A DNA stretch of 64,000 bases from Mesaphorura yosii (taxonomy: Eukaryota; Arthropoda; Collembola; Poduromorpha; Tullbergiidae). Under the pieces are notes generated by a model. The model had not been told where the DNA came from. It was given only the letters and a program-made list of their open reading frames with translations, and made no database searches. The stretch is from assembly GCA_009869945.1 (NCBI GenBank), contig WIXG01000137.1, forward strand, positions 118,564 to 182,563. Reading direction: 5' to 3'. This document shows positions 531 to 19,347 of the stretch, piece after piece (the first letter of the stretch is position 1; every line of letters starts with the position of its first letter). Both the position numbers and the translations under genes were made by a program.

Positions 531-3500
531 GTCCCGTCTACATGTGTGAACCCTGCAACATCAAATTCAGCTCCGCCAACACGTTAGAGGCCCACCAAAC
601 TTTCTACTGCTCGTTTCGGAAAGATTCAGGTATAAACCAATTAAAACTCCTCCCACGTAGCGGGAATTGACTCCAATTTAATGATTTTGCAGATAAAAAT
701 GGAGTCAAATCCGAGAAAGACCCCGAATTTGATTTCTCGACGTGCTCTAACCAGGCCAAATTAGCCAAGTCACAGACAGGCATCAAGAGAAGCGCCTCCA
801 CAGCAGGCGTGAGCGGTGGCGGCGACAGCTGCCCGTCCGACATGGAAGACGAGCAGCCGGAGCCAGAGCACGATGACGGCGAGCACGAACTCTCAATCGA
901 CGAGTCACGGTCACCGAATTTAAATAACGCCCAGATTCAGTCGCTGTCGCTCATCCAGAAGCACGCCGAAGAAACGGAGCACGCCAATGCTGGCAACCCC
1001 AACAAGAGCCTGAAGACTGGGAAGCAGTACGCGTGTATGTACTGCTCGTACAGCGCCGAGAAGAAAGTGAGCCTTAACCGCCATATGCGCATGCATTCAG
1101 GCGGTGGCTCGACCGTCGATGCCAGTGCATCGATGAACGAAGACAGTCGAAGCTGCTCGACACCATTCAACGTGAACGTGGCCGCCGGCAGCGGTGGCGG
1201 CAAGTCTCAGGATCCCAGCACATCATCGGCCGGAGCCGCCAGTGGCGGTGGAATCGTGGCCATAGAATGCTACTGCACAGACTGCGACATTCAATTCTCG
1301 AAAGTCAAGACGTATCGAGTGCACAAGCAGTACTACTGCAGCACACGCCACGTGCTGAAGGGCCAGGGGTGTGCGATCGGGACATTGCCTGGAAGCAATG
1401 GGAACGGCGGTGTGGGCGATGCGCCCTCACCTGTGTCAATCGTGGCCGTGTCACAGCCACAGCCAGCCGGCTCCCCCGCGGCCGGCCTGCACTCGAGCAG
1501 CCATCGACAGTCTTCATCCAGAAACTCACCATCAGCGTCAGCGTCTTGCAGCCCACCGACGGGCGTCGGCCCATCGAGCATGCCGTTCCTGCTGCTGCCC
1601 ACGAATCCTGTGATAATCGTGCCATATTGCTTCATTCAAGCAGCAACACTTTTACCAGGAAATATGCTCCCCTCACAAAACGCACTCGTCGTCCTCCCGA
1701 ATGGAATCGTTCAAGGGCTACCCAACACGCTTGTGCTCCCACCGCCACCACCTTCGTCCACGACGCCGGGGCCGGGGCCTTCAGGCGGCTCTTCAACATC
1801 ACCAAACGCCTGCAACAGCCAGCAACAGTTTGGCATTCCTGGTCTGAATCTCCCGCAGTTCATGTTTGACGACCCAAAAGAAGTAATCAAGCGAGTGTCC
1901 GCTGGAGAGAGAAGTCGAAAAAGGAATCACGCTCACGCGTCTTCGGACGAATCTGCCAAAGATTCGAACGAGCTGCTGCATCAACGAGGGCATCGGCGTG
2001 AGCGGGAGCGCGACGCGATGGACCTCACCCTGAGGCCAGGGAGTGCAGACGACGGATGCATGAAGGGCGGAGGCGGAGGCGGAGCCGGGAGCATGAGCAG
2101 TCTGAGCAGTGGAAGTCGATCCTCTTCTCACGCGCATCTTCATCACCTTGATGGTCCTGATTATCTTGAGAATCTGGAGCATGCCCACGAGCGTGACCAC
2201 GGCCGAAGCCCAGATCGATTGAATTCGATATCGATGTCGAGCTTGGCAAGCATAAAGCGATCGGCCTCGGCCCATTCCTCGAGACCGTCTTCGGCGTCGG
2301 TGAGCAGCACGTGTTCGACATCCCCGCCAGCTCCTGCGCTGCATGGCGGCTCGGAAGCCTCCGCAGCTGCTGCCACCAAATCAGGACTGCCACCGAACGG
2401 ACTCAAACTCGAACGGCTCTCGCCTTCGTCTTTTAACCAGCTGTCAGAGAGCCAACAGCAACTCCTGCTTTATCAGCACCAGATTCAGCAGCAGCAAGCC
2501 GTGGCAGCCGCCAAAATGATGCAATCAAACTCAAGAAACAACCACAATCAAGGCAGATCCAAATCGGGCTCAGGTTCCAGTTCTAGCCAAAGTATTGCAA
2601 CAACCTTTCCTGGTGGTGCCATTCTCACCGCGACGAATCCAGGCTCGAATGCTATGAACCCTGCTCCGAGTCTTGCAGAATTGCTTATGGCGACAGCTGC
2701 AAACAGCGTCAACGCCAATGCCAACGCCAACATGGATTTGGGCGACAATCTCAGCAAATTGAACTCACAGCTCTTGTCAGGCTCCAACGCGGCTGCGACG
2801 GCGATGATGGCAGCCGCCGCAGCGTCACTCCCGCCTGAGTTGGCAATCAGACTTCTTTCGGACCCAAACTACTTGTCTTCGATCCAGCAAACAATCGCGC
2901 AGCAGCAGCAAAATATGGGACTGATGGTTCCCACCACCGTAGGTATCGGCGTTGGTGCAAGCAATTCTTCACCTGCGAAGGGCGGCGGCGGCACTCCATC
3001 GCCTTCACCCGCACCTCCTCCGATCAAGCGTGGAGTGTCTCGCTGCGTTGAGTGTGACATCGTTTTCTACAAGTACGAAAACTACCTGGTTCACAAGGAG
3101 CACTACTGCGCGGCGAGGGGAAATAACATCGCAGGCGCGGGCGCAGGATCTGGTCTTGTTAATGGGACACCCTCCGAACTGAAGGACCAGCTCCACATTT
3201 CACCACCACCGCAGTTGCCGCCTCCGGCCACGAGACAGCGCCGCAGCCACACAGGCGGAGTCAGACACCAGCCGCAGTCGCAGCAGTCGCCGTCGATGTT
3301 GATTGGGAGCCGACCTAGAAATAGCAATAAAACGGCGGCGGGGTTCACCCCAGCGGATGAAGCGGCTATGCTGATGCAAATGCAGATGCAGTCGCCTTGC
3401 AGTGGCGAAAACAGTGGAGATGGGATGACAACCACGAAGACGGCCGTATCAAGCTCGCCTCCCGTCGCGCTGCGAGGTGTGACCATCACACCCACGTCGG

Positions 3501-6049: not shown

Positions 6050-6794
6050 ATGCTCCGATTCCTCGCCACCGTCGCCTTGTTAGCACTCTCCGCTGAATTC
6101 GCTTCGGCCCAACGTAAGCGACTCTTGAATTCTTGCGCCTAAAACTGCTGAAACATACTAAAAACGTATCCGTAAGCTAATTGGCGAATTTTTCGGTGCA
6201 GTTTTCAGCCGTACAGAATTCAACAACGCCGTGCAATGGAACGGATACCCTCAGCCAGCCGGCAACATTTACGACTCGCTGGTCGCCGAGCTGTGGCGCT
6301 CCAACATCAACACTAAGCAGGAAGCCGCGATGGCAGTGACCCAATTCATGCACGAGTCTGATGGCTACCGCGCTCTCCGTGAGTATCGCTGCCAGAATGA
6401 CGGCTGCCCCAACGAGTACAACACTCCCGGCTGCGACGTGCCCGGCCAGCGCTACTACGGCCGTGGGTGGATCCAGCTGACGTGGTGCTACAACTACCGC
6501 TCCGCCTCCAACGCGCTGTACGGCAACGAATGGCTCCTCGGAGACGCGGACGCAGTTGCCCGTGACGTGTACATCGCTTGGCAGACTTCCATGTGGTACT
6601 GGGCCTCCAGCGTCCACAACGCCCCCGGAGTGCAAGACGGACGCTTCGGAGCCTCCACCCGTGCCATCAACGGCGCTCTCGAGTGCGACGGTGCTTACCA
6701 GCATGTTGCTCGCAAACGCTTCGAGATGTACGGAATCGTTCGCTCAGCCTTCAACTTGGGCGGCAATGGAGACGAACGCGGATGCTACAACTAA
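6050..6794 (+). CDS. secreted glycoside hydrolase family 19 chitinase
   Basis: GH19 enzymes cut beta-1,4 links in chitin by inversion. Exons 6050-6113 and 6202-6794 give 218 residues. The N-terminus is a signal peptide (hydrophobic core at residues 3-15, likely cleaved after ASA at 18-20), so the enzyme is secreted. The catalytic domain carries FMHESDGY (proposed acid Glu73; Glu82 may be the base), YYGRGWIQLTWCYNY, and ATRAINGALEC-like text (STRAINGALEC), all GH19 landmarks, with Cys pairs for disulfides. There is no chitin-binding domain or linker. Most arthropod chitinases are GH18; GH19 is scattered in animals, so the gene may have been acquired from microbes, although it now has an intron and an arthropod promoter. 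A role in digestion, defence or moulting cannot be decided from sequence. A poly(A) signal lies at 6861-6866. Confidence 0.93.
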
Positions 6795-7370: not shown

Positions 7371-8906
7371 CTAATGGCAGCGGTTGTTGTGCAGGAACGA
7401 CCAAGGCGGGGCAGCTGCAGCTGGCAGTTGTTCAGCTTTGATCTCGTTCAACTGCGTCTGAATCTCTGAGATTTTCGCCTTCATGTTCTCTTCCCTCGTT
7501 TTCAGATGCGAAATTTTTGTGTTTGATTCGTTAACGAATTTCTCCACTGCCGCGCCGGCCACCAACCTCTCCTCGAGTGCAGCTTTGAGTGCGTCCAGTT
7601 GCTGCCCTTCTGCTTTCCAACGCTCCATGTCTAAATTGGGGCCGAGTCCGAATCTGTACTCTAGTTTTGTGATCTTGTCAGGAGCTTTGTTCTTCGACCC
7701 GCCTCCAATGACGCCTCGCGACGTCAGCCGGTGTCCGTCTCGTGTGATCACCATCGGACAGTGGCCTCTGATTTCCGGGTTCACGTTGCTACTCGCAAGT
7801 CTGTTGTACTCCTTCATAAACTGCATTGCATCGGCCAACGTGTCCACCATGATCGTGTCTCGAAGTATAATTCCAAACACCTGTCGGATGTGGTTAGCAC
7901 GAGCAGGATCGTTTGGTATCAGCAGAAATGAGCGGGCGTACGCAGGGTGTCCAAATCCCATCAAGGCAGCAGGTACTGGCGCGTTCCAGGTCTGAGGCGT
8001 GCGCGGGTAGTCTCGAAGAATCCCTAGCACCATGAAAGTCGCCTGCGGGTCTCGATCGTATAGCGTCCTGGCTCTTACTTCATTCATCGCCACGACGGTG
8101 TCCAAGTCAGGCTGCATGACCCACGAAAGCACGCGCTAGAGGTTCGCTGCATGTCCACCACCTTCTGATTTTATCTCGACAACTCGGCCAATTTGGCCCA
8201 AAACTAGCGGGTCACTGTCGTCCCACGTAGACTCGATGTTTGACTTGGCCGTGCAAGATTTGTTAATCTCTTTCTGAATGTTTGACGACTCACGGCGAAG
8301 TAAGTTTTGTCGTAGACAGATATCTGCAACAGTCTCGAGCACGTCCACATGTGGTCGACCAACCTCAACTCCAGGTGGAGCGTCGCGGGTCAAAAATGTG
8401 ACCAGATCCTCTCGGGTTTTGTGCTCAGATCTCTTGGCGCTGTTAAGTTTTCCAATCAGCTGGTGCTTCGTATCGCCAAATTTTCTCATCTCCGTCTGGA
8501 CCCGGCGTAGATCTGACTTGCACGAATTCCCTTGGGCCTCCAAGTTCTTGATTTTTTTATGCTGAATGATATTGTTTGAACTGATGAATTTCAGATCGTA
8601 CGTCAAAATCTTGCCGTTGCAAAGTCGAGCCGTGAATCGGCCGAGCGGGAGAAGTTGGGCTCCAGAGTTGAAAAGGGCAACCGAGCCATTGGTCTCTGAA
8701 TCACGAAGCTTCTGATGTTCTTGAATCCGGGTTATGTTTGGCAATATTTCCTCATGGTTTTCTCGCTCCGTCTCGTCAGGGACATCTGGCCATGGCGTTG
8801 AGGACGGATCTGAAGCAAAAAATTTCAGTGGATGAGAAAGTATATAAAACGATGATACTCACTGGCATGCTCATTAATTTTGACTGGTGACAATGGCAAG
8901 CCCTTG
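7371..8906 (-). pseudogene. SMCHD1-type SMC hinge protein fragment with an in-frame stop
   Basis: The frame 8809-7371 (minus) reads as the C-terminal part of SMCHD1, a chromatin silencing protein whose hinge dimerises and binds nucleic acid. Landmarks in order: LGQIGRVVEIKSE, then RVLSWVMQPDLDTVVAMNE, GFGHPAYARSFLLIPNDPA, IILRDTIMVDTLADAMQF, the hinge turn VITRDGHRLTSRGVIGGG with KNKAPDKITKLEYRFG, then a C-terminal coiled coil up to the stop at 7371-7373. One TAG at 8136-8138 interrupts the frame just before RVLSWV; the frame is open and family-like on both sides and no intron of normal size can remove it. A short upstream exon (8863 to at most 8914) joins by gtgagt/cag, but an in-frame TAA at 8915-8917 limits it. 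The large N-terminal GHKL ATPase part is absent. Probably a truncated, decaying duplicate; recoding or a sequencing error are alternatives. Confidence 0.75.
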
Positions 8907-9527: not shown

Positions 9528-12500
9528 CTAGAAAGGATACGTAAACAGTTTTTTTGCGTTATTAATCGCATATTCGATGTCTTTCCTGACGACCTCCAAC
9601 GGTTTCTCTATCATGTCAAATATCTCATCCGGATACAATCTCTCTAGTTTCATATGACGCAGAAAAGTGTCTGGTGCCGTGACGCCATGTTTCAAGAATG
9701 GCAATGACAATTCTTCGGGAACGTCTCGTTGATTTAATGTATTGTAGATGGCGTTGTGAGCGTTGTAAAACTCCAGCCAAGGATACAGCGGAGAGCGGAG
9801 TCCATCCATCTCCAGCTTGGCGATAAACACGTTGTAGTCGACGAATTGCATCTTGAGGTAATACTCATCTTTCAAAAGTTTCTGTACCTGTAACGTAAAA
9901 ATGTAAATGCAAATAATTAAATATTAAATAGTAAAACCAGAATAAAGTGGAATCAGATTTGATTAGGTTGGATATGATTTTACACTTACTGTTTCATCTT
10001 TTAGAGCAGCTCTTGGATCATCAATCCAGTTTTTGCCATACTTTCTATCCAAAAACTCCATGGTTGCCAACAACTTGTCCCTACGTGCAACAACTTCGGG
10101 TTTATCGGGTCCAAATGCTCTACTATTAACTCTGACAGCCTGTTAATGAATCAAATTAATTGCGGGATCATCAATAAGTAAAAGTACACGATTTCACTCA
10201 CTTCCACCATGAAGCGTAGACTTGGGCCGAGTTGCATTCCCAGGCTGACCAAATCCATTTCACTGATGTCATACGGTGAGACCACATTGTAAATGTCGGT
10301 TGCTGCAGCCTTTTTGTTGAAAAATGTAACCATACTAATATTTGCACAATCTCGAACAGAAAGGATTTGGAGGGGAATGTCAAACTGCGGCAAAGTACCG
10401 GATAACAGAAAATGAAGAAACTTGGCAATGAAATGATTCGTCGTCACGTCTTTGCAATTGCCAATTTTTGGGAAGCGGAATACTTTAGCTGGAATGCCAC
10501 GCTGTGAAGCTTTGAATATCATGTAATCTATATAATTAGTACAATACAATTAGTAAATTAGTCCTCCTCCTTAATTGTTACTAATTAGATTAATTAATTT
10601 AGCAACTCACCCGAGATGGATTTACTTATCATGTAGCCAATATTTGGTGCATGGTCCAATATATATTCAAATCCCTTATGCGGCCATTCCTCTGGAGCCA
10701 TTTCATAGTAAACTCCTTTAGTTCCTGTAGAAGCCATTCCAGTTGATGCATTAAATAACCACTTGCTCCTTTTGTGACAAGCAAACTCAAGAATACGAAC
10801 TGTTCCATCCACATTTACTACTCTCGGCCCATTTGGATCTGAATCATCTTTGTATTTGCTCAAATGATTCGTACAAGCAGCACTATTAATGATGGCATCA
10901 CATTCATCCGCCAATCGATCATAAGTTTCTTGATCCAACCCAAATCGATGCTTTGCCGCATCACCTTCAATTATAATAATCTTGCTCAGATCGATGGAGT
11001 CTTTAATCTCCAAGAATTTAAACTTTTCAAGCATTCGTTCCCTTCCATTCTTCCCACGGACAAGACAATAGAGTCGATCCGTCTGTTGTTTCCTATTCAA
11101 TAGCAACCATTCAACAAGGTATGGACACAAATTCCCTGTGATTCCTGTCACGAGAAAACTCTTGAGCTTCTTCAGTTTGATGGTGTTGTAATTGTCTGGA
11201 CGGACAATGTGCTTCGGTAGTTTCATATCTCGCAAAATTAACTCCTTCGTCCTAGCAATCTCTTCCAGCTCCATCTTCCGTTCCAACCCTTGCGCCGTTG
11301 CTTCGACCTTGTCACAGATTCGATCACTCAACTCGGCCACACCTGTGCAACCAAGCAAGTCGCTGAATTTCAGATTGACATTTTGTCCCAGTAGTTCTTG
11401 CAGACGATTCTTCATCAACACAATCTGTCATTTTTTTAAAAGGTCAAATTTTTACGGATTTTAATTCCAATTCCAATCAGAGATTCCATTTTTGAATGAA
11501 TTCTGACCTGTAATGAGCTGAGTCCAAGTTCTGAAAAGTTGGAGCTTTCCGTTATGAGGTCACCCACATTTCGACCAGATTTGGTCAGGATTTTCATGAC
11601 TTCTTCCATTATAATTCGAGTCACAACATGACGATTCAAGATGCTTTTTGTTTCCCCATTCTTTGATTCCCAAATCTCACCTGGTCCAATCAACTGTTTA
11701 TTTACTACGACAGAGTGGAATGGTTGGATGACTCTGTTTGGTTTGTAAGATGCATAAAGTGCATGCCAGTTGGAGCTGTAACCCATAGTGTACAAAGTGC
11801 CAAAGGTGATCATCAAAGTCGTCCAGTCATCTGTGCCTTTTTGGAGCGATGGGAGACATGTGATTGGTTCACTATTTTCAATTTCATCAACATTCATAGC
11901 CACGAGTGCAGAAAGTACTGGTTGTGAACCAATCTCAAGGAAAGTACGTGCCCCAGTCATATATGCTGACTTGCATGCCTTTTGAAATTGAATTTTGCTA
12001 CGGACCAACCGAGACCAGTACAAACCGTCCATTTGGGTGTCTGTTATCAAATATCTTTCTTCAGTTACACATCTGTTTCGAGGAGACTTATAATTAAGTC
12101 ATTTTTACTTTTAGTTAATTGTATACTTACCTAAGATTTGTCCTGTCATGGAAGAGATGTACTCCCATCGATTGAAGTAATTTTTTATTCCAATCATCAT
12201 CTCATTGAATTTATTTAGCACTGGTTCAAGAGCACGTGAATGGAATGGTGAAGCGACTGGAAGCAACGTATGCCTAACCTTTTTCTCTGTACAAAAGTCA
12301 CGAAATGATGAAATTGTAGCTGCACTCAAAGACACTACAGTTTGATAAGTAGCATTCACATTGGCAATTTCAACCCACTTTGAAGAATCACGAGCAACCT
12401 TTAATTAATATAAGTTAATTAAGATTAAATTAACAGAATTATTTATACGTTTCTCTTTGTTTTTACTTTACTTTCATGTATTTATTTGTAAGTATTCACC

Positions 12501-13304
12501 TTATTGTTAAACTCATCCAGTAGTTGGATCGTACGCTGCTCGTCTACTGCCAGTGCCATCATTCCGCCATTCTCACATTGGGAAATCAATTCCGTTGCGG
12601 CTGTTGCTGTTTTGATTGCATCATGAAGTCGTGTGATTCCAGCAGAATGTGCAGCGATAAATTCACCCATACTCGCCCCTTAAAAAAAATCCATCAAAAT
12701 TTCAAATCAGGAAACCAATAATTTTTAATTTGTTGTTCAACTGACCAAGTACGACATCTGGTAGAATTCCCCAATACTCCCACAATTTTGTTAAAATGAA
12801 ATTTAACCGAAGGTGTGCATGAATTGAATCTGTTGGTGAATCCAATTTATGAGGCTCAACCCAAGCAATTTCTTCTAATGTTGAATATTGATCTTCTGTG
12901 TTTGAATCCTTGTAAGCAGCCAGAGCATACTCCTCCACAATGTCCACGTAATTCCTGAATACTGGTGATGTGTCGTTCAATTGTTGCCCCATCTTCGGAT
13001 ACAATGAGCCAAGACCAGAGAAAAGGAAACAAATCTTTGGTAGATTTGCCCCAACTATGCCACGTATCACATTTCCAGATTCCAAATTAGCCAACAGTTC
13101 CTCAAATGTTTTGCCAATCACAACTGCCCGATGTGAATGACGAACTTCCGGTGAAGTATTAATTGAAAACGCCACATCTGTTAAATCGAGTCCATCAGAT
13201 TGACACTTCTTCAAGTATCCCTTCAACTGGACCAACTTCCCTTCGACCTCAACGTCGGAGTCCGCAGACACGGCGAGCAGATGAGTTCCAATTCTGTCTT
13301 TCAT
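9528..13304 (-). CDS. PKS-like acyltransferase - ACP - thioester reductase protein without ketosynthase
   Basis: Exons (minus): 13304-12746, 12678-12500, 12398-12131, 12058-11508, 11424-10611, 10527-10202, 10139-9990, 9887-9528; 1068 residues. Residues 1-85 resemble the linker that normally follows a ketosynthase. The acyltransferase domain follows (about 90-400): FLFSGLGSLYPKMGQQL, nucleophile Ser189 in GASMGE, and His299 in ASPFHS. An acyl carrier domain (about 470-560) has the phosphopantetheine serine in ELGLSSLQ (Ser517). A Lys2/NAD-binding-4 type reductase (about 605-950) has TGITGNL (612-618), CLVRGK, VVNVDGTVRILEFA and the YMISK pair Tyr783/Lys787. A C-terminal region of about 120 residues ends the protein. 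Expected chemistry: load an acyl chain, hold it as a thioester, and release it with NADPH as aldehyde or alcohol. No ketosynthase exon is visible upstream, so chain building must occur elsewhere. The acceptor of exon 4 is the least certain join. Confidence 0.88.
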
Positions 13305-13988
13305 TATGCTTACTCAACACAAAGTGAAATGAAATGAGACAAAATGTAAGCCTGTCACATTTTATAATAAATTTTATTCTCTCTTTAATTACATCCTTGT
13401 ATCATGGAATGATTTCATTAAATTTTGCAAGATTAATAGAAACAAGTTTCGTCTCAACCTACTAGACAAAGGACTTTTTTGGCAGGTAAACAGGTCTGAA
13501 AACTGAACTTGGGAAATGCCACAAGCCTTTTTAACAAAAAAAACTTGACCAATATATCATGACGAAACTGGAACCAGTTTCTCAGCGCGTGTATGTCAAG
13601 GCCATGAGAAAAAACCCCACGACAGTTTCAAGTCGTCTTGGAGGAGCAACATTTGGAAAGATTCAACTATAGATTTCCATTTAAGAAATTTTTTATTTCT
13701 ATTTTTGTTGATGCACTCATATTCCGCCATTAAATCATTGAATTATTCCAACATGGATTCCATTGATTTAAATTCTTGTTTTGTTTTTACTGTTCTGATC
13801 GGCGCTCACATGAAAAAAAGTAAAGTAACACACCTCTTGTGCAGATCTAGACCAATTTTAATATTTAATTAGTTTTTTTTCTGTTTTTAATGTTTTTAAA
13901 TTTTAATATTCCATTCGGATTATATTAAGTTCCTGGTAGCATATTGCTAACATGCAATTAATTATGTGTTTATGTAATTATAATATAT
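13305..13988. other. intergenic DNA, probable promoter of the AT-ACP-reductase gene
   Basis: About 680 bases, AT-rich, with no supported gene. I looked here for a ketosynthase exon (minus strand, the active-site Cys motif of the DTACSSS type) and saw none. Confidence 0.5.
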
Positions 13989-15204
13989 TTAGTCTGTCAT
14001 ATTAGAAAATAGTCGTTGCATTTCTTCAGAATCAATTTTCTCTGCTAACACTTTGTTCCATTTATGTCGCTTACGCCCGAAAATCTTCAATTTCTCCAAC
14101 CAGTCTGCACGAATGTATGGTTTTGCCATGAACAACATAAACCGACTCAGTCGCTTCGGAACTGTACAGAAAAAGAACAAGAAAATCAAGTCAAGTACAG
14201 GTTAATAAATAAATGATTTCTGTTGTTTAATTTAAGTTTAATTAAAGTTACCATTGAGAAAATAAATCTCATGAACAAGTCCAGGGTAATTTGTTTTTAA
14301 AAGTTCGTAGCCTTCAGTAAAGATTGTGAGCAGTTTAGGAACGTATCGCCAAGCAAATTTCAAGTCTTCAATGTTTTCTGCCAACTCGGCAAGGGCACGA
14401 TAATGTGAAAAGTCCAAAATGAGGATGGCAGAACGGATTCGTTTCTGTGGGTCTTCTTCATAACGACCACCTAAATCCGAATCACATTCTTTGATTTTTA
14501 ATAGAATTCGTTCCAAGTACATTGTCCCTGCACGAATCACACTTTCTTTGTATTCGGCAAACACATCGGCGCCAGTACGGGCATCTTTAAAGTTGTCATT
14601 TAAATCTGGATTAAATTCTGGTTTAAACATCTCGATTTTTTCAAGTCCGTTTTTAATATCTTGAATGTTTTTGATTTCATTGAAGTCGACATCAATTTCT
14701 TCTCCAAATATCTCGTTCATGTTGTTAATTGTTGGGCAATGGACAAACACAGGGCGTCCTTGGCGGTCAACGCCAATTCGGTCGTCCATGTCACGCTCCC
14801 ATGCAAATTTATTGTTCAAAATAATCTCTTTGAGATGTCGCTTTTTTCGCCATTTCATAGTCTAAAAATAGAAATAGAACAAAAAAAAATCAGAATTAAA
14901 CTTGATGGTTGATTTATTAATTAAATTAGTTAAATTAATTACTTCTCTGTATCGTTGGACTGCTTTCAGTAACTTGAATCGTTTTTCTTCCAGCCAACTG
15001 AGTAGATACCCATCTGACAAGAAATATGGATGCTCCAACTCATCGTTCTCCAAAATTCTTCGCATCTAAATTCATACAAGTAACAATACTCAATTTACTC
15101 AATACTAACAGAAACTTCCCAGGATGACGTTTAAAATTAGTGATATTCGAACACCTAAAACTTACCTCCTCGATTTTAGCCATAATCTCCCGTTTGGCGG
15201 ACAT
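13989..15204 (-). CDS. CRAL-TRIO domain (SEC14-like) lipid-binding protein
   Basis: Exons (minus): 15204-15166, 15065-14943, 14861-14252, 14161-13989; 314 residues. The first 60 residues form the helical CRAL-TRIO-N segment (FLSDGYLLSWLEEKRFKLLK). The lipid-binding fold follows: DRIGVDRQGRPVFVH, AILILDFSHYRALAE, and NYPGLVHEIYFLNG with VPKRLSRFMLFMAKPYI, which are the core strands and gate region of SEC14-like proteins. These proteins carry or present hydrophobic ligands such as phosphoinositides, tocopherol, retinoids or squalene; the ligand cannot be read from sequence. There is no signal peptide or GOLD domain, so it is probably cytosolic. An unusual insertion of about 70 residues (roughly 80-150) is acidic and Asn-rich. 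The start is the ATG at 15204; the frame continues upstream without a better ATG. Its place beside the AT-ACP-reductase and monooxygenase genes suggests a lipid-carrier role. Confidence 0.88.
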
Positions 15205-15715: not shown

Positions 15716-17562
15716 ATGCGGACTCGTAAAGAAATTCACGGTACAAGAGTTGCCTCTGGTGCAACTCCGAAGATTTGCATAGTCGGTGCCGGGTAAGTTA
15801 AAAAAAATAACAAAAACATTTTTATCATGGTTTTTAGTTTCAAGTTAAAATGACAGGTTTGGTGGGCTATTGGCTGCAATTCAACTCAAAAGAAAACTTG
15901 GACTCACAACTTTCACGATCCTGGACAAAAATCATGACTTTGGTGGTGTTTGGCTGACAAGTAAATACCCGGGTATTAGCGCTGATCTACCCGCACACAT
16001 GTACTGCTACACATTCGAAATTAATTTCGGTTAGAATATTATTCAGTCATTCAGTTATTTAAAAAGAAACAAGTGTCAAATTCCAATTTCATAAAACAAA
16101 TTTATTGTGCAGATAGCAGCAAATGGTACCCAGATCGTCCTCAACAATGGCAATATTTTCGACGGTTGGCCCTCAAGTACAAACTGTATGAGAACACCCG
16201 ATTCGGTACGACAGTCTCCGCAATGACATGGAATGAGCGTAAGTGGATCGTCACAAGCTCAACAACAAGTGGAAATGCCTGTGAAATACATAACGAAGAA
16301 TACGACATAGTGATTGTGGCCAAAGGGCCATTTCACCAGATCAATTTCCCTGACCAATTTAAAGCATTCAAAGGACCAGTCATCCATTCAGCTAATTGGG
16401 ATGGTAACACTCCTCTAGAGAACAAAGTTGTTGGCGTCGTGGGAAGCAGCTCAACTGCCGTCCAAGTCATCCCAGCCATTGCGCCAATCGTCAAGAAACT
16501 CATCTGCTACCAGCGCTCAGCGCCATATGCCATGCCGAAATGCCAGATGCACATTCCAGCATGGCTCAACTTTCTCTTCCGCTGGATCCCGGGGCTAGTG
16601 TGGTTGGAATTGGCTCTCATTTGGCTCGTCGTGGAGTTATTCGCCATTTGTTGCACCTGCAGTCGAAATTGGATCAGCTCATGCGCGCGTTGGGTTTGCC
16701 TCCTCTGGCTGAAATGGAATATAAAAGACCCTGAGCTCAGAGAAGGACTGACACCGAAGTACAAGTTTGGTGTCCGAATTCCCATCATTTCGGACAAATT
16801 CTACAAATCAATGAGCTTCAAACACGTGCGGTTGGAGAAACGGGCGATTCAGAAGATTGAGGGAAATGCGATTGTCACTGAGGATGGGAACTCGGAAAAG
16901 ATGGACGTAAGAATGGAATAATTACATTTAACGATATTAATCTAAGATTAATTAGGCTTTAGATTAAGTGTAATGCTCTTCCTGACAGGTACTCATTCTA
17001 TGCACTGGTTACAAACTACAAGATTATTTTTCTCCAATGAAAGTGACTGGCACGGCGGGGCAAGATCTTATGAAACTGTGGAAACAGGGAAGACCAAAAA
17101 CTTATTATGGCACAACGTGCTCAGCTGCTCCAAATCTATTCATTTTATTAGGCCCGAATACGGTAATCAATTACTTATATATTAATACATTATATACATA
17201 TCTTAATACAAGTAATAATTTTTATAAATTCAATTCAGGTCCAATTTGGTGGTTTTGTATTTCCAATGGAATGTCAAATGAACATTGTCATCAATTTGAT
17301 CAAGTATATGATGAAAGTAGATGCAGCTGTGTTTCGTGTGAAGGAGGAGGCTGAGGAGGAATGTGTCAGTGAGCTTGAACAGCGACTGAGAAAGACAATG
17401 TGGGACGGGGCGAGTCATGAGGCGACTTGGAGTGTCAACGAACATGGTCATCACACAGTCATGTGGCCAGGCACAGCAACTTCATTCTGGTGGAAAACAA
17501 GAAAATTTGATGCCAATAAGTTTGAGTTTGAAACCAGGAATGCAGATTTAATGAATGTTTGA
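15716..17562 (+). CDS. Baeyer-Villiger-type flavin monooxygenase
   Basis: Exons 15716-15792, 15857-16029, 16113-16906, 16989-17162, 17239-17562; 513 residues. The FAD Rossmann motif PKICIVGAGFGG spans the first intron (residues about 22-33). FGGVWLTSKYPG and DLPAHMYCYTFEINF match the class B flavoprotein pattern GG(T/V)W..YPG..D.P.H.Y.(F/Y)(S/T)F. The fingerprint FxGxxxHxxxW(P/D) is present as FKGPVIHSANWD, starting at Phe169. The NADPH-binding stretch VVGVVGSSSTAVQ follows. LILCTGY near residue 352 is the late dinucleotide-domain motif. A hydrophobic stretch around residues 225-260 could be a membrane anchor. Such enzymes insert oxygen next to a carbonyl to make esters or lactones, using NADPH and O2. 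The family is common in bacteria and fungi and rare in animals, so an acquired gene is possible, but it carries four introns. AATAAA lies at 17798-17803. Confidence 0.9.
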
Positions 17563-19347
17563 TTTCAATTTCATTACTACATATTTAACCTCAAAGTTGT
17601 GTTGTTCAAAAGATGTTTATAAACTATAATTAAATTTTGTAAATTTAATTTCCCTTTTCATAATCCGCTAGAAAATGATGAAATTATAAATTTCAGTCCC
17701 ACAAATGTGCATGATTGGAGAATATTTCGCAATTCTTTTTTTTTATTAGGACTGAATTAAATATTTACTCTGCTCCATGATTACGCAATGTGAATTTAAT
17801 AAAATTAAACTGCGTGTTATACAATCATTTTACATTTCAATTCACTTGGGAAGGTTTTAAATTGTTGATTTAGCGTGATCAAAATTAATATAACAACAGT
17901 GATTTCTTAATTTTCATTTGTGAATACATTATGTAAGCTGTAGTCCACATGGCATTATCAAACTACTTTTTTTCTTTATAAAACAAGTTTTTTAAAGTGA
18001 TTTGGAATCTTCCTCTTTCTACATTCTTCTCTGGGAGTGAGATTGAAGGACAACCGGTGTTACTGAATTAAATTCTAGACTGACGCAAAACAGACGACAT
18101 ATTGACGCACATGAGAAGCCCCAGCAAAAAATAACTCCCCAGCAAGCAGTGCAGATTAAAATGAAACCAGGAGCCGGTATCACCGAACTTAGGTGACTTT
18201 GCAAAGCATCTGGGACAGAGTAGAAGTCTTGATTATGGGTCCTTAATATCTACTCTTTAATTGGAAGGAGGCTGTTTGAGTCCTGTGACCTCGTAAACGG
18301 TGATAGATAGGGAAAAAATTGCCCGCGTTATGCTTAATGCACTAGCCGATACCCTCGCTCGCGAGCTCGTACTATTGCCCTCACCATTCAACGTAACTCT
18401 CCCCCACCTCCTCCTAGATACCATACCCTCCTACCCAAGCCCTTGCCTGCCCTGTTCCCGTAACCATTGCGAAATGTAATTTACTAATATTCAAGGCAGA
18501 AAAAATTCTCTAAAGGATTTCATAACGTCCTGCTGCGTTTCGTGCACGATTTTCCTGATTTTGCAATTATAGAGAATTGCTCACATTGCGCATAAATCTG
18601 CAGCTAACAAAGATCTGAACAGTGTGGTAAAGTCTTGGATGTCTCCTGCTCCATTCTCGTGATTTTGCAAAAAAAATTCGAAATTTGCACATTTGCGGAT
18701 ATGCAAACTTTGAGTGACCTATAACCTTCTCCGTGACCTGAACACGACAATGAAATTGGTTTTGCCCTATCTACAACCCTTTTCGAGATCATAGAGGACA
18801 AACATTTTCGACCTCCCTCCGATTAAGATTTGCCAAAATTAACGTTGGAATCATGAACAAAAACTGAGCTTCATGGACGTCAGAGAGTCCTAACTAAGCG
18901 GTGCCTAATTAGTGAGAAAAGCAACTGCAGATTGTAAAGATAAAAAGAATCGATGAACACTGCCAGCCAACCAAATGAATTCTAATTTTCTGATAGCAAT
19001 CAACGTGAATGTGCAATGCAGCCATTTTATTAACGACAATGTAGATTCAAAAGGTGAATAATTTAAGGTAATAATATGTAACTTTCCACGGCTCCGATAA
19101 TTGATAATTTAATGATTTCATGATTCAAAAGTATTTTCATCAACCTGAAAGAACTAAAATAAAATTCTTTACTACAACAATATTTTTCAGTTTGAATCAG
19201 GAGTAAGTCTGCTGTTGAAGCAACTTGAGTGGAATGGAATTCCTGGAGGATGCAGTTTTGATCAATTTAGGTGACATTTATTTTGATGTCCATGTGCATG
19301 TCCATTGGAATTAATGAAATTATGGAATTGGAGTTGAAAAGTTTGAA
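17563..19347. other. intergenic DNA between monooxygenase and lipase
   Basis: About 1.8 kb without a supported gene. A C-rich stretch lies at about 18390-18470. Two loosely similar segments around GATTTTGCA occur near 18500-18600 and 18605-18710, possibly an old local duplication. Confidence 0.45.

Follow-up and report, generated by a model that had tools for sequence, protein, structure and literature searches.

CARs combine an ATP-using adenylation domain as the loader with release of an aldehyde, and the R domain of MxaA terminates a KS-bearing assembly line. FARs are not known to carry an AT or an ACP. Among the animal FAS-like PKSs, R-terminated sequences are reported from a few arthropods; according to the available portion of that report, they were found by a KS search and are thus KS-bearing (PMC10764717). 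The gene described here lies at 13304-9528 on the minus strand of the window, i.e., the whole 64-kb stretch of Mesaphorura yosii DNA that was analysed, and differs from these arthropod sequences in being KS-less. With CARs (5mso, 5msp and 5msc) it has a carrier and a thioester reductase in common, with R-domain matches of E 1e-8 to 3e-9. However, its loader is an acyltransferase rather than an adenylation domain: Pfam gives an AT ahead of the carrier, and no adenylation domain there. The best PDB match of its R domain is MxaA (4u7w, E 2.3e-16), from which the gene likewise differs by having no KS. The NAD_binding_4 family is common to the window protein and animal FARs, and the predicted product is similar.

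Rebuilt from splice sites, the gene is an open model of 1062 residues (Table 1), with an ATG at 13304, a TAG ending at 9528 and 1062 codons without an internal stop. The introns are 62-102 bp long, and exon GC is 0.42 compared to 0.25 in the introns, a contrast which fits a coding gene. The preliminary description of this DNA had proposed a gene of eight exons, and the rebuilt model agrees, with eight exons joined across seven GT-AG introns (7/7) into one open frame. Ser189, His299 and the TGITGNL motif are found where that description had placed them, while its remaining residue labels were six too high: the carrier serine is Ser511 and not Ser517, and the reductase pair is Tyr777/Lys781 and not Tyr783/Lys787.

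Table 1. Exons of the AT-ACP-R gene and its upstream flank, in window coordinates.
Feature	Position	Strand	Basis
Exon 1: start codon, KS-AT linker, N-terminal half of AT (Leu98, Ile161)	12746..13304	-	splice sites, Pfam, paralogue alignment
Exon 2: AT nucleophile Ser189 in GASMG; Ala188, Ala214	12500..12678	-	splice sites, paralogue alignment
Exon 3: catalytic His299 of AT	12131..12398	-	splice sites, alignment
Exon 4: end of AT, linker, first part of ACP with Ser511 (GLSSL)	11508..12040	-	splice sites, Pfam
Exon 5: end of ACP, R-domain NADP motif TGITGNL (606-612), Ser740, Tyr777, Lys781	10611..11424	-	splice sites, Pfam, PDB match
Exon 6: remainder of R domain	10202..10527	-	splice sites, PDB match
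Exon 7: C-terminal portion	9990..10139	-	splice sites
Exon 8: C-terminal portion and stop codon	9528..9887	-	splice sites
Upstream intergenic stretch, no ketosynthase trace	13305..13988		tblastn and KS profile

Three Pfam domains are found in the window protein: Acyl_transf_1 at residues 93-413 (E 3.2e-27), a PP-binding carrier at 495-549 (E 2e-6) and NAD_binding_4 at 605-807 (E 6.1e-34). Together with the absence of a KS from the window searches below, they uphold the AT-ACP-reductase architecture first described. The proposed start at the linker that follows a ketosynthase is also recovered, as a CurL-like KS-AT linker at residues 8-74 (E 1.8e-4), though its 21.8 bits are under the curated Pfam cut-off of 27. 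By their Pfam and PDB matches, the AT and ACP are of PKS type. The best solved-structure match of the AT is CurL (159.7 bits), and of its 26 PDB matches with E no higher than 1e-20, none is by name an animal FAS. In the R domain, the TGxxG motif (Gly607, Gly610) and the Ser, Tyr and Lys (Ser740, Tyr777, Lys781) are all present. The change of the third Gly of the motif to Cys is not read as a break in the reductase, as the paralogues also differ at that position (Gly or Ala).

Searched by tblastn with two KS domains from this genome, the 64-kb window gave no match below E 0.098, and with a profile of eight KS domains from the same source, none below E 2.6. The positive controls of this profile (1.2e-122 and 2.6e-121) are loci whose KS built it and give little proof for a diverged KS. 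A fairer control is a profile of ATs from which the window gene was left out; it recovers the window AT as four pieces, with E values from 1.2e-25 for the best to 4.1e-9 for the weakest. As the gene runs on the minus strand and the right edge of the window is also that of the contig, the searches cover all assembled upstream sequence, about 50 kb. Hence, in the genomic sequence of the 64 kb to the contig end, we find no KS in cis of the kind that defines a type I PKS. The gene could still be a piece of a full synthase that annotation or assembly has separated from a KS located elsewhere, and we regard this as very improbable. The model was built from genomic sequence, and possible AG acceptors were read by eye just 5' of the ATG; a 5' exon without a recognisable KS is conceivable. 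However, the window contains no N, genes flank the model on both sides, an in-frame stop lies four codons 5' of the ATG, and the ~50 kb between the gene and the end of the contig yielded no KS. A fragment would also leave the missing internal DH-MT-ER-KR block unexplained; the DH-to-KR middle block of the complete synthase on contig C225 has no match in the window at E 0.1 or better.

The 93-Mb genome that we searched is arthropod-like in its 66 Chitin_bind_4 matches, a family with none in 14 control genomes, all of them prokaryotic; a COX1 search gave no match. It contains 36 exon-level KS matches. The window protein matches 29 places in it, eight of which are its own gene, and the other 21 consist of 12 AT-side and nine R-side rows at 25-33% identity. 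R-side matches fall on nine other contigs, of which seven carry a KS match as well; the remaining two are C1104, which is 10.5 kb long, and C685, where the match is 69 bases from the contig end. Complete KS-AT-DH-MT-ER-KR-ACP-R synthases were read at two loci. The one on C225, a 127-kb contig, is an uninterrupted stop-to-stop PKS frame of 3189 residues (L042/L043, C225:59562-69128), and the one on C135 is spread over several exon frames, with its ER assigned from partial matches. The window protein is 27-32% identical to these two, with linker, AT, ACP and R in common order, and is collinear with residues 529-974 (linker-AT) and 2683-3076 (ACP-R) of the C225 frame. Relative to that synthase it is without the KS and without DH-MT-ER-KR.

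Descent of the window gene from a synthase of this genome would be the simplest reading, and its origin in the KS-AT-DH-MT-ER-KR-ACP-R family is likely, though the trees do not prove it and do not fix the parent. In both trees the window row has no supported neighbour, and the nearest row by path is C135. Its end branches are 4.31 and 3.55, compared to medians of 0.61 and 0.52. Frames of over 3100 residues are also found on C731, C799, C851 and C632. A further PKS (L046, L024; C467:46301-52768) aligns with the C225 frame from a point within the AT to its end side only, and the 4.4 kb before it has no match to that frame at E 1; it may be a shortened gene or reflect a long intron or a misassembly. 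In another collembolan genome, that of Folsomia candida, 30 type I PKS clusters are reported in the available text (PMC5490193).

The paralogues show which residues of the window protein have changed. Eleven paralogue ATs were aligned and nine were compared, with the partial L024 and L037, which looks like animal FAS, excluded from the count. The window protein retains 36 of the 54 AT columns that are invariant in the nine (one gap allowed) and 29 of the 44 in ACP and R; this makes 65 of 98 overall, with 33 changed. Within the AT, the window has Q98L, Q161I, H188A and R214A, and the original residue is identical in 9/9 paralogues at each of the four places. Both excluded sequences keep His188 and Arg214, and in L037 position 98 is Met and position 161 is Phe. 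The window protein retains each of the eight catalytic residues that were checked (Ser189, His299, Ser511, Gly607, Gly610, Ser740, Tyr777 and Lys781). The hypergeometric values for these two patterns, 0.011 (four of four changed) and 0.032 (eight of eight kept), refer to sets that were both chosen after seeing the alignment, and some of the other changed conserved residues have no obvious specificity role.

Such losses, which include Gln98 and His188 beside the active site, are also what a relic would show, i.e., a gene being lost whose frame is still open and whose AT is catalytically dead or which is not expressed. The long end branches of the window row point the same way. Nevertheless, we find a relic rather unlikely. 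All of the checked catalytic residues are in place, and held-out paralogues retain from 48/69 (70%, L027) up to all of the invariant columns. A similar share is thus retained by L027, whose contig carries KS matches and an open frame of 2794 residues. The window retention of 66-67% is low, yet not far under that of L027. Furthermore, when the window CDS was taken to 30% identity by neutral substitution in 200 runs, using substitutions only and the stop-rich base composition of introns, a mean of 66.5 stops and a minimum of 50 accumulated, and already at 90% identity none of the 200 runs was stop-free. The actual frame has no stop or frameshift at ~25-33% identity to its relatives. Set against at least 50 simulated stops, this open frame speaks for coding constraint over most of the history of the gene; a recent loss of function or expression may have followed.

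The four AT substitutions fall on motifs that have been described for other acyltransferases. According to the accessible part of a study of bacterial PfaB, a Gln and an Arg are required for malonyl specificity in MAT domains, and the His of GHSxG stabilises the malonyl-enzyme (PMC12895367). The Gln and the Arg are the residues missing from the window AT by Q161I and R214A. The same text describes PfaB as having no such Arg (Asn in S. baltica), Ile (EPA-type) or Glu (DHA-type) for the Gln, Tyr for the His in bacterial PfaB, Val or Ile for the Gln of PGQxQ in the bacterial types, and a Met after the Ser (PMC12895367). The window AT is thus changed at the same four motif places, as matched through these motif descriptions and not through an aligned sequence. 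By the same descriptions it is PfaB-like in Ile161, Met190 and a hydrophobic residue at 98, and it has lost the Gln-Arg pair and kept the Ser-His dyad. Both PfaB enzymes tested bound palmitoyl-CoA and passed palmitoyl to an ACP, and neither bound malonyl, although some malonyl transfer to ACP persisted with that of M. marina; other homologues are reported as hydrolases (PMC12895367, available part). PfaB is a member of a PUFA synthase for which the accessible text describes no reductase release (PMC12895367), whereas the window AT sits with ACP-R. As the window AT is closest to CurL in PDB, its likeness to PfaB, which was compared by description only, looks convergent.

Loss of the Arg alone need not create a long-chain transferase. 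The accessible part of a study of FAS states that R606 holds the extender carboxylate and that animal FAS has Phe in place of the Gln (PMC6954729). In mouse FAS, the single change R606A lowers octanoyl transfer ~700-fold (kcat/Km), although in rat FAS, as cited in the same text from Rangan and Smith (1997), R606A raised octanoyl turnover (PMC6954729).

The altered pocket could also be that of a loader for short-chain starters (acetyl, propionyl or branched), similar to the AT of bacterial AT-ACP loading modules, in which case the product would be a short aldehyde. Loading ATs generally lack the carboxylate-binding Arg, and its loss is expected for monocarboxylic substrates. The PDB matches of the window AT include an avermectin synthase AT (4rl1, AVES 1), which we take to be a loading AT. 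However, the window AT is similar to PfaB, as the available text describes it (PMC12895367), in Ile161, in Met190 and in having a hydrophobic residue at 98, and a short-chain loader appears improbable to us.

Taken with the conserved ACP and R residues, these changes suggest that the window gene encodes a trimmed PKS that would act as a free-standing acyl reductase, with loading of a non-malonyl acyl group and reductive release; we give this reading about an even chance. It would have arisen from a KS-AT-DH-MT-ER-KR-ACP-R synthase of the type found in this genome that lost its KS and its reducing block. In the proposed mechanism, CoA or a different carrier would donate to Ser189 an acyl group that has no free carboxylate and is most probably of medium or long chain length. 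The chain would then move from Ser189 to the phosphopantetheine on Ser511, and NADPH-dependent reduction of the thioester by the R domain would give an aldehyde, which might be reduced further to an alcohol. The preliminary description had already suggested loading of a ready-made acyl chain followed by reductive release. The loading part is strengthened because the malonyl-holding residues of the AT have changed, whereas the chemistry is still deduced from the domains. The part in cuticle lipids or semiochemicals that was proposed there would be one possible role. The present results also go beyond it in that the DH-MT-ER-KR block is missing too and that complete synthases are present in the same genome.

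The chain could instead come from a partner enzyme, with the window protein acting in trans on a complete synthase or FAS, from whose carrier or KS it would off-load and reduce the completed chain. It would then be the releasing half of a two-protein system and not an independent acyl-CoA reductase. The 36 KS matches in the genome would offer such partners, the catalytic residues of ACP and R are kept, and a non-malonyl AT would suit acyl transfer from carrier to carrier. On the other hand, the KS matches on 7/9 of the other R-side contigs suggest that those synthases have an R themselves, and there is no KS partner within the window; an off-loading role is therefore possible but unlikely.

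More tentatively, and with some doubt on our side, the trimmed acyl reductase may represent a new class in animals: an AT-driven counterpart of CARs, derived from a PKS stripped of its KS and reducing domains, with an AT convergent on the long-chain active site of PfaB and possibly supplying aldehydes to the Baeyer-Villiger-like monooxygenase described below. We found no paper naming an AT-ACP-R or KS-less type in the open-licence text of PubMed Central. Two surveys of PKS genes in animals or mites (PMC10764717, PMC7542773) start from the KS domain, as far as their available text describes, and a KS-free derivative would therefore be missed by design. Searches for relatives in sequence collections are weak tests of absence. 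Six stretches of viral contigs matched a search pattern, and none encodes a relative. Among 213 stretches of genome contigs, the alignment of paralogue R domains gave two loci, matched over only ~54 residues at the carrier. None of 628 matching plasmid records had one place covering at least 80% of the query. In 149 genomes from the bacterial phylum of L047 (Nonomuraea), searched at E at most 1e-30 with five candidates scored in each of the five matching genomes, 14 matches were listed; these are all AT-side, as none extends past query residue 465. If the proposed reading is true, a synthase can shrink to its loading, carrier and reductase parts while its substrate pocket changes to match, and the gene would offer a single-gene test case for arthropod aldehydes and alcohols made apart from the usual reductases.

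Those usual reductases may be few in this genome. Of the 16 exon-level NAD_binding_4 matches, nine are on the contigs of the R-bearing paralogues and one is the window gene, which leaves only six others, and ordinary fatty acyl-CoA reductases therefore look few; these counts are lower bounds. The six are on five contigs, and only C48 scores high, in a stretch with 11 internal stops that indicate introns or damage.

Several neighbours of the window gene were also read. An intron-containing monooxygenase-like gene lies at ~15716-17563 (plus strand), 2.4 kb from the start of the window gene. Its main exon frame, of 298 residues, matches flavin-binding and cyclohexanone monooxygenases in PDB (best E 5.4e-17) and reads FKGPVIHSANWD, which presumably fits the Baeyer-Villiger fingerprint. 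A cyclohexanone-type monooxygenase is unusual in an animal. Aldehydes or ketones would be possible substrates of such an enzyme, and it is tied to the window gene by distance alone. A formate-ester pathway through this monooxygenase is a possible lead; among the papers listed, none treats one in its title or the start of its abstract. Just upstream of the window gene, the gene at ~13989-15204 (minus strand) has a weak CRAL_TRIO match in one exon (E 0.0097, below the Pfam cut-off) and no PDB match at E 0.01. At 7371-8858 (minus strand) there are two adjoining open frames, 254 and 240 residues long, neither of which reaches the cut-off of any Pfam family, and at 6162-6794 (plus strand) there is an open frame like a GH19 (class I) chitinase (Pfam E 4.6e-15). 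Elsewhere in the genome, C759:14869-15240 (L052) is the best of 12 exon-level DIOX_N matches.
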